64,000 nt of DNA from Phycisphaera sp. (lineage in GTDB: Bacteria; Planctomycetota; Phycisphaerae; Phycisphaerales; Phycisphaeraceae): positions 1 through 64,000 of the forward strand of contig WGMF01000008.1 in the NCBI GenBank assembly GCA_016125215.1. The letters run 5' to 3'. The notes below the pieces were generated by a model, which had not been told where the DNA came from, did not search any database, and saw nothing but the letters and a program-made list of their open reading frames with translations. Below are positions 9,786 to 11,565 of the stretch, piece after piece. A program made the translations under genes and the position numbers. Position 1 is the first letter of the stretch. Each line of letters starts with the position of its first letter.

Positions 9786-9788
9786 GCG

Positions 9789-9857
9789 AAGGTCATAAAG
9801 GTGAAGGTCATAAAGGTGTCAAGGTCATAAAGGTGTCAGGTCATAAAGGTGTCAGGT
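9789..9857. repeat. Tandem repeat of AGGTCATAAAGGTGTC (four copies plus partial)
   Basis: AGGTCATAAAGGTG recurs four times with spacings of 14-17 bp directly after the dehydrogenase stop codon. The last copy runs into AGGTTGA, the left end of the inverted-repeat element at 9844-9984, suggesting slippage or repeated insertion at that end. Confidence 0.75.
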
Positions 9858-9984
9858 TGAATAATGACGGAGACTTTTCGATTCGGTAGCCTCTGGTCAT
9901 GAAAGACCGTTTTATGGCCAATAAATGGAATTTTGAACCCGATCATCAAACGATGTTAGTCAATAAATCAACCTGACACCTTAT
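9844..9984. mobile_element. MITE/REPIN-like element with terminal inverted repeats
   Basis: The left end AAAGGTGTCAGGTTGA (about 9845-9860) and the right end TCAACCTGACACCTTATT (about 9967-9984) are inverted repeats of about 16 bp around 105 bp of AT-richer DNA with no gene. Its right end contains the stop codon of the last integron cassette gene, and it lies where that cassette's attC would be expected. This suggests it replaced or truncated the array end. No transposase is present here. Confidence 0.6.
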
Positions 9985-10196
9985 TCTTCTCTGCGCTTGG
10001 GTGTGTCATCTGCAAGGCGTTCAAGGTAGTAGATCACATCAGCTTGATTAAACCAACTGCGCGCGATCAGCCTCGGTGGATTGGACTGCTCAACGATGAC
10101 GTATCGGCTTGCCGGATGGCGATTGAATCTCACCGGAATAGTGATGCCGTTCCGTTCGCAGAAACGACGTACCCTGTCTGACGTGCGTTCGGCCAT
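9981..10196 (-). CDS. Integron cassette gene 3: small uncharacterised protein
   Basis: 71 residues, not recognised. It is basic near the N-terminus (SDRVRRFCERNG) with a central stretch RFNRHPASRYVIVE and a charged C-terminus. Its start codon lies 4 bases beyond the core site of attC 1 when read on the minus strand, as expected for a cassette gene. Its own downstream attC is missing; instead the stop codon lies in the inverted repeat of a MITE-like element, so the C-terminus may be altered. Confidence 0.55.
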   Translation of the reverse strand: MAERTSDRVRRFCERNGITIPVRFNRHPASRYVIVEQSNPPRLIARSWFNQADVIYYLERLADDTPKRREE

Positions 10197-10200
10197 GGCG

Positions 10201-10309
10201 GCATAACGAAAAAGGCTCAGTTGCCGGTCGCCCGCGGAAGGGGGCTACCAACCGACAAGTCTATTGTCCATCGCGGGCGTCGCCGGTCAACTGCAGCCGG
10301 TGGTTATGC
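10201..10309 (-). other. attC site 1 (integron recombination site)
   Basis: Bounded by GCATAAC (10201-10207) and GTTATGC (10303-10309). Between them the arms pair almost fully with single unpaired bases, e.g. GGCTCAGTTGCCGG against CCGGTCAACTGCAGCC, then CGCCCGCG against CGCGGGCG, around a variable middle. The stop codon TAA of the lipoprotein cassette lies in the inverse core. It is more than 90 percent identical to attC 2. Confidence 0.82.
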
Positions 10310-10684
10310 GAACACCGCGGCGGGCACGATCTCGACTACTTTCCCGTCTTTGAATCGGATGGTGAGCATACCACCTCCCGGTGCCGCACCGCTCCCGTTG
10401 CCATATGTAAGCTGCCAAGTATCGTCAGTCTCCATTGCCGCAGGCGGGGGCGTGATGCCGTATTGACCGTTCCAGTCAAGTAAGCCGCTGCGGGCGATCT
10501 GTTCGAGTGCCTCGTGTCGATTCATCCCGACAGCAATGCGGGCTTCGCCCCACTCGAACGCCTGAACCGACGGCAACGGCAAACCATTGCGTACCGGCGA
10601 CCCAGCGACGGGCTGTGAATATTGCCCGCACCCAACCGGCAGCAGCAGGACGGCCACAAAAAGAAGGAGGACCACAGTTCGCAT
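10304..10684 (-). CDS. Integron cassette gene 2: predicted lipoprotein
   Basis: 126 residues. The N-terminus MRTVVLLLFVAVLLLPVGCG is a lipoprotein signal with lipobox LPVGC, so the mature protein would be acylated at Cys19 and anchored to a membrane. The rest (ARIAVGMNRHEALEQIARSG, then GMLTIRFKDGKVVEI) resembles small SmpA/BamE-like folds (G-M-x-x-x-E-A... and F-x-x-G-x-V), but I do not claim the family. The start ATG is inside the core site GTTATGC of attC 2, and the TAA stop is inside the inverse core of attC 1. Confidence 0.75.
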   Translation of the reverse strand: MRTVVLLLFVAVLLLPVGCGQYSQPVAGSPVRNGLPLPSVQAFEWGEARIAVGMNRHEALEQIARSGLLDWNGQYGITPPPAAMETDDTWQLTYGNGSGAAPGGGMLTIRFKDGKVVEIVPAAVFA

Positions 10685-10789
10685 AACGTAAAAGGCTCAG
10701 TTGCCGGCCGCCCGCGGAAGGGGGCTACCAACCGACAACACTATTCTCCATCGCGGGCGTCGCCGGTCAACTGCAGCCGCTGGTTAGAC
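10681..10789 (-). other. attC site 2 (integron recombination site)
   Basis: Ends are GCATAAC (10681-10687) and GTTAGAC (10783-10789); read on the minus strand the inverse core is GTCTAAC, a full RYYYAAC match. The internal arms are the same as in attC 1, with about nine substitutions over 109 bp. The TAA stop of the VOC gene lies within GTCTAAC. Near-identity of the two sites is typical of chromosomal cassette arrays. Confidence 0.82.
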
Positions 10790-11236
10790 GCCCTCAGATT
10801 CCTTGAGCTCCTGTGCCAGTCCGATGAGTATTCCTTCGGGGCCCCGGATGTAGCAGAGCCGGTAGGTGTCTTCGTAATTGACGATTTCATCGACCACTGT
10901 CGCGCCGAGTTTACTGAGCCGGGCGAGAGTGCTGTCAATATCCTCGACGGTGAACATGACGCGCAGGTATCCCAACGAGTTCACGGGGGCTGTGCGGTGA
11001 TCGGACGTAATGGCGGGGGCGTCGAAGCGCGAGAGTTCGAGGCGGCTGTGGCCGTCGGGGGTGCGCATCATCGCGATTTCGATGCGCTGGTCACGCACTC
11101 CGGTGACGCGGCCGGACCATTCGCCTTCAATGGGCATGCGGCCTTCGAGTGAAAGGCCGAGCTCCATGAAAAACGCAATGGCGTCGTCGAGGTCTTCCAC
11201 CACGATGCCGACATTGTCCATACGCTTGACTGTCAT
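10784..11236 (-). CDS. Integron cassette gene 1: VOC/glyoxalase-superfamily protein
   Basis: 150 residues from ATG 11236. It opens MDNVGIVVEDLDDAIAFF, the first beta-alpha of a vicinal-oxygen-chelate domain. The second module is LGYLRVMFTVEDIDSTLARL...YEDTYRLCYIRGPEGILIGLAQEL, ending with the usual E-x-x-x-x-E region. Members include lyases, dioxygenases and drug-binding proteins; the reaction is unknown here. The longer frame to 11479 is rejected because the ATG at 11236 lies 14 bases past a core site and downstream of two promoter-like boxes. The stop lies in attC 2. Confidence 0.8.
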   Translation of the reverse strand: MTVKRMDNVGIVVEDLDDAIAFFMELGLSLEGRMPIEGEWSGRVTGVRDQRIEIAMMRTPDGHSRLELSRFDAPAITSDHRTAPVNSLGYLRVMFTVEDIDSTLARLSKLGATVVDEIVNYEDTYRLCYIRGPEGILIGLAQELKESEGV

Positions 11237-11250
11237 GATGTGTACTTGGC

Positions 11251-11311
11251 GTCTAACAGTGATTATACAGAATCCACATACCAGTATCGTAACGGGCGAC
11301 GGGGTTGTCAA
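11251..11311 (-). promoter_or_regulatory. Core site GTTAGAC with cassette promoter(s), possible attI remnant
   Basis: The minus strand shows TTGACA (11311-11306), 17 bp, GATACT (11288-11283), then a perfect TATAAT (11267-11262) and a GTTAGAC core (11257-11251) before the VOC gene. Unlike the attC sites the sequence outside the core is not palindromic, which fits an attI-type site better. A promoter beside attI normally drives the cassettes. The rest of the gap, 11312-11565, holds nothing I recognise, and no integrase frame. Confidence 0.55.
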
Positions 11312-11565
11312 GGGGGATTTACACCTTGTGTAGTCAGGTGTTAGGGGTCGGTGAGTTGGGCGTATTGGAATACGAAAAGCAGAATTGGTGACAGGGTCAT
11401 GTGAGGGGGTGCTGTCGTCGGGTTTTCGACTTCGGCTAGATGCAACAAGACTCAACCTGCGGGGATTCGTCCGTGGCAACCCTTAATCGGTCGTTTCATC
11501 CACGGGCGGGCGGGCCGTCGGTGGGATACCCAATGATGGCACACCCAAGCATCTCACGTGTTTCG

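Follow-up and report, generated by a model that had tools for sequence, protein, structure and literature searches.

An integron cassette array without a local integrase

The window, a stretch of 64,000 nucleotides from a Phycisphaera draft genome, carries a short array of gene cassettes on the minus strand (Table 1). A first-pass annotation had read this region as cassettes without an integrase, with genes for a VOC protein, a lipoprotein and a 71-residue protein and with two repeats more than 90% identical. All three open reading frames (ORFs) are present, and the two repeats of ~109 bp (10201-10309 and 10681-10789) are 94% identical over 106 nt. The 126-aa ORF matched no Pfam or NCBIfam family, and by inspection of its sequence the product is a putative lipoprotein. 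The 71-aa ORF had no family match.

Table 1. Features of the array in the window, with strand and basis of assignment (C44 and C13, other contigs of the genome; R1, covariance model described in the text; G/TT, crossover point).
Feature	Position	Strand	Basis or remark
MITE-like repeat with AAGGTGTCAGGTTGA inverted ends	9786..9982	.	Copies on C44 and C13
Start of third cassette, 71-aa ORF	9981..10206	-	Begins at G/TT of the cassette 2 attC
attC of cassette 2	10201..10309	-	R1, 129.9 bits; fold z -4.0
Cassette 2 (480 bp), lipoprotein gene and attC	10207..10686	-	G/TT limits; 11-bp closure
126-aa ORF, N-terminal hydrophobic segment and lipobox-like LPVGC	10304..10684	-	Translation
attC of cassette 1	10681..10789	-	R1, 132.7 bits; fold z -2.5
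Cassette 1 (570 bp), VOC-family gene and attC	10687..11256	-	Limits from G/TT crossover; 10-bp closure
VOC/glyoxalase-family ORF, 150 aa	10784..11236	-	Pfam Glyoxalase PF00903, E 2.4e-12; translation
attI/Pc leader	11246..11415	-	Homology to C44 sequence upstream of intI
attI core TTCTGTATAATCACTGTTAG, 20 bp	11253..11272	-	Predicted crossover G/TT between 11257 and 11256
Pc-like promoter TTGACA-17-GATACT	11283..11311	-	Consensus scan

The repeats are genuine attC sites. This conclusion rests on a covariance-model match that they have in common with a complete integron, on unpaired bases confined to one side of the fold, and on the closure of the cassettes over 10 to 11 bp. The covariance model (R1) was built in-house from the two sites of the window's contig (C45) and six sites of contig C44. 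It gave minus-strand matches at 10199-10310 and 10679-10790 of ~130 bits each; since both sites are among the rows of the model, its independent evidence consists of the matches on C44 and in other genera. Across the 4.04-Mb genome, R1 found only one other cluster besides the C45 repeats, at C44:54.6-59.97 kb, and it found no attC in the C45 array beyond the two. For minus-strand cassettes, the plus strand is the bottom (recombining) strand. The bottom strand of both repeats forms the expected hairpin with unpaired bases on one arm, with a folding energy of -32.3 kcal/mol for 10201-10309 (1 of 200 shuffles equally good) and -27.0 kcal/mol for 10681-10789 (3 of 200). GCATAAC/GTTATGC is not an exact fit to the RYYYAAC and GTTRRRY ends ascribed to the repeats in the first-pass annotation, and the two sites have unlike R boxes (GCATAAC and GTCTAAC).

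Cassette closure is the strongest test of the array as real integron cassettes. A cassette that was circularised through its own attC must start with the complement of the end of that attC. The VOC cassette starts with GTTAGACGCC and closes against the end of its own attC, GGCGTCTAAC, over 10 bp; the lipoprotein cassette starts with GTTATGCGAAC and closes against GTTCGCATAAC over 11 bp. When starts and attC sites were swapped, only 4 bp matched. In the C44 array, one cassette starts with GTTAGGTGGAT, not with GTTTTATGG, and closes against ATCCACCTAAC. The test discriminates poorly in another genome, G003, where many cassettes have the same start. The region 9981-10206 is a putative third, truncated cassette: it has no attC and runs into the adjoining MITE-like repeat.

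The attI and Pc-like promoter at the head of the array

The extent given in the first-pass annotation, 9981-11257, is too short, because an attI/Pc region continues beyond 11257. This region is 73.5% identical over 170 bp (E 7e-22) to the C44 stretch between intI and the first cassette, and when the whole genome was searched with it, C44 was the only second place found. The attI core is identical at 20 of 20 positions to the attI of C44 and to the attI beside intI in G003, and variants of it adjoin intI in three further genomes (G011, G045, and G006). With up to two mismatches allowed, a scan of 400 genomes of the order found the core at five places, confined to 3 of the genomes, and the reversed control gave none. 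An exact scan of all genomes for TTCTGTNNAATCACTGTTAG was set aside, as it returned eight records from unrelated taxa, about the chance expectation.

The Pc-like promoter upstream of the core agrees with the consensus at 10 of 12 positions (shuffles, mean 0.3). Its hexamers align with the same hexamers in C44 and with similar ones in G011 and G003, and it is predicted that the promoter could read into the C45 cassettes. Judged from the homology of the leader, the identical core, the upstream promoter, and the rarity of the core, a second attI with its Pc-like promoter stands at the head of the array. This attI, which is recognised by its homology to an intI-linked attI, directly adjoins the first cassette.

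The attI bears on how the cassettes came to lie on C45. An integrase can insert freed cassettes at non-canonical GTT sites in the genome (attG), a known route of cassette scattering that is discussed in the Xanthomonas study (PMC12444791), and the arrays on C44 and C45 have the same type of attC. Insertion of freed C44 cassettes at such a site was nevertheless rejected as very improbable, because 170 bp of attI/Pc homology immediately precede the first cassette, unlike what is expected of a random target. Cassettes that landed at a random secondary site would not be preceded by an attI, and the array is therefore better described as a second integron platform than as scattered cassettes.

The integron integrase of the genome

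No integrase is present in the window (tblastn with IntI, best E 0.4), and neither intI nor a remnant of it was found by tblastn beside the attI. With two attC sites and no IntI nearby, the array falls under the definition of a CALIN (at least two attC, no IntI nearby), and intI does not adjoin its attI. The first-pass annotation had proposed that the cassettes are a fragment mobilised by an integrase elsewhere in the genome. Such an integrase does exist, at C44:60465-61685 (L018:8466-9686), beside an array of the same attC type; what failed is the idea of a mere cassette fragment, for the array has its own attI and Pc-like promoter. The C44 IntI is 407 aa long, scores 334.8 bits against TIGR02249 (cut-off 265), and is the sole IntI over the cut-off in the genome. 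It reads away from its cassettes. The solved structure closest to it by sequence is that of the integron integrase 2A3V, its catalytic positions are conserved, and judged from the sequence the protein is intact. Seven further attC sites of the same type, one of them degenerate, were found in the C44 array by DNA similarity, and R1 added one more divergent site (C44:59252-59353). The C44 locus is thus laid out as a sedentary chromosomal integron (intI-attI-Pc-array).

In the IntI proteins of C44, G003, G006, G011, and G045, an extra stretch of ~30-80 aa separates the WQYVFA motif from the RRHLHE region. It is longest in G011 and absent from the IntI of G019, and may represent a lineage-specific addition close to the IntI-specific region.

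Integrase-less arrays with attI heads in other genomes

Other attC clusters were searched with the region upstream of each genome's own intI. An attI with cassettes but without intI also occurs in G003, G011, G019, and G106, and attI-like heads occur in G083; no second attI was found near the stray attC sites of G006 and G045 in the loci examined. The orphan array of G003, a two-contig genome of another genus, lies at C1:1345926, one of the five places of the attI core. The stretch examined contains 13 attC, and of intI no more than the first 27 codons can be recognised. In G019, the orphan attI on C7 is 88.7% identical over 159 bp to the upstream region of that genome's own intI, and the homology ends just inside the intI start. 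In G011, the orphan attI on C133 is 83% identical over 90 bp to the corresponding region. In G106, from the same genus as G019, an orphan attI occurs but no IntI exceeds the cut-off, in a genome that is only 89% complete. The single-contig G083 likewise has no IntI above the cut-off, and two of its arrays have attI-like heads.

These genomes also bear on whether the C45 locus is an artefact of assembly or binning. In that case the contig would be chimeric or foreign, or the locus would be a collapsed copy of the integron on C44. The genome is a draft of 58 contigs, and near-identical attC sites hamper the assembly of integrons (PMC9024848). On the other hand, the locus lies ~10 kb inside a contig of 114,680 bp, the layout recurs in the two-contig genome and the attI-like heads in the single-contig one, and the C45 attI has diverged from that of C44 and is therefore not a collapsed copy. 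An artefact is accordingly held to be highly unlikely.

Do the orphan arrays descend from one inherited locus? In the four genomes that have both, orphan and main attI pair by genome, with scores of 96-195 compared with at most 42 between genera, and the genes flanking the orphan arrays are unrelated between genomes apart from generic enzyme matches. A single inherited locus was rejected on these grounds. Because each orphan attI matches the main attI of its own genome and the flanks are not shared, the orphan arrays probably arose independently, by copying within genomes. Gene conversion between attI copies could also produce the clustering by genome.

Two other observations concern these arrays. 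Several cassettes of G003 (orphan array L057; L055:1500-2560) are near-repeats of one another, apparently with no obvious long ORF, and the array looks like a set of amplified, possibly gene-less cassettes. In G083, a degenerate attI-like stretch (C1:4397536-4397662, L102) is 72% identical to that of G019, had no attC found adjoining it, and is apparently a decayed platform.

Probable cassette movement between platforms

Evidence that cassettes pass between platforms comes from G019 and G003. The main array of G019 was pieced together across two contigs, C21 and C13, whose matching insertion-sequence ends suggest that an insertion sequence divides a single main integron between them. The second cassette of the G019 orphan array is 100% identical over 396 + 44 bp to pieces on these contigs, while the orphan and main attI regions are only 88.7% identical. 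In G003, the first cassette of the main array is 96.5% identical over 537 bp to an orphan cassette, with edges at the cassette limits, and the two attI regions are 77% identical. Given the near-identity of cassettes beside diverged attI regions, the passage of cassettes from one platform to the other most likely postdates the divergence of the attI regions in both genomes. When alignments of the four main/orphan pairs were anchored at the crossover, the 25 bp adjoining it were more conserved than the rest (94/100 compared with 479/658, p 3e-7).

IntI works on an attI carried by a separate replicon in laboratory assays (PMC9668308), and mobilisation of CALIN cassettes in trans is accepted (PMC9668308, PMC12690207). 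No cassette common to the C45 and C44 arrays was found, so for this genome we can only infer activity in trans.

Proposed origin and operation of the C45 array

The C45 locus is probably an integrase-less satellite platform, made up of attI, Pc, two complete cassettes and a truncated one, that is worked in trans. According to this model, the chromosomal integron would have been the source of the attI/Pc head, whether or not intI was copied along with it, and a local intI, if there was one, would then have been lost. The C44 IntI would act in trans, inserting circular cassettes at both the C44 and the C45 attI, and Pc would transcribe the VOC and lipoprotein genes. How much of intI was copied? 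The intI start retained in G003 and G019 suggests that at least part of the gene was copied with their heads and then lost. In all four cases the breakpoint is close to the start of intI and not at some other point of the gene, and the copied unit could therefore have been smaller. The copies keep the attI side, and in G019 the homology begins at GGTTT; a weak suggestion is that IntI itself makes the head copies by recombination at a non-canonical GTT.

The main alternative is that the locus is a dead relic. A duplicated or second integron would have been without intI for a long time, and its remains would at most still be expressed from Pc, with no exchange of cassettes. The absence of a shared cassette, the divergence of the attI leader and the truncation of the third cassette by a repeat are in keeping with it, and a short array with such a cassette has the look of decay; the arrays of G083 and G106, which have no IntI over the cut-off, are also what relics would look like. 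Against a relic stand the identity of the attI core to the intI-linked core, the intact IntI in the genome, the two complete cassettes, which still close and whose ORFs are open, and the probable movement of cassettes between platforms in G019 and G003. A relic is judged unlikely, and a satellite platform worked in trans is preferred. It is a real possibility, put forward tentatively, that in this bacterial family one IntI per genome serves several attI-Pc platforms in trans and that some CALINs are active secondary integrons and not debris. The attI-Pc heads would then have been copied repeatedly to new loci, with a functional attI kept, and would capture and express cassettes there.

Relation to known integrons

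The C45 array consists of known components in a variant arrangement and is by definition a CALIN. As in the IntegronFinder class of that name, there are at least two attC sites, no intI adjoins them, and the genome encodes an integrase at another locus. The definition says nothing of an attI or a promoter, whereas the C45 array keeps a Pc-like promoter and an attI with a conserved core; it could thus take up new cassettes and express them, and not just donate them. With sedentary chromosomal integrons it has in common attI, a Pc-like promoter, and cassettes with near-identical attC sites typical of one host lineage; it differs in having no intI and only two complete cassettes. In Xanthomonas, the attI side and the cassettes outlast intI function and CALINs occur at other loci, but intI is broken in place at ilvD (PMC12444791); the present genome combines an intact intI with a separate array that is headed by attI. 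In the delta-attI cassettes of mobile integrons, an attI away from its usual place is still recombined by IntI; there, a partial attI replaces an attC within an array, whereas on C45 a whole attI/Pc heads a separate array (PMC12901181).

CALINs are common in bacteria, where they are as a rule taken as degraded integrons or scattered cassettes. This reading stems in part from the standard tool: outside class 1, attI goes undetected by IntegronFinder (PMC9024848), and attI-headed CALINs would be overlooked. No description of CALINs with their own attI and Pc beside an intact integron was found in a literature search that took in few subscription journals. Comparison within genomes makes attI recognisable, and several integrase-less arrays prove to be headed by a conserved attI, several of them with a recognisable Pc. 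If operation in trans is true, several first-position cassettes would be expressed simultaneously under one integrase, and the counting of integron content and expression would change.

The distal repeat

The MITE-like repeat, whose inverted ends can also be written AAGGTGTCAGG(T/A)TGA, apparently truncates cassette 3, and in the window it provides the stop codon of the 71-aa ORF. Copies of the repeat occur at C44:54745-54906 (85% identical), near the end of the C44 array, and at C13:52473-52598 (69%), and its end motif is present on six contigs. With copies near the distal ends of both arrays, it was considered as a marker of integron ends. The inverted repeat is also found on C8, C12, C13, and C48, and it is therefore a dispersed MITE-like repeat. 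Adjoining it, at 9790-9854 of the window, AGGTCATAAAGGTGTCA occurs in four tandem copies.
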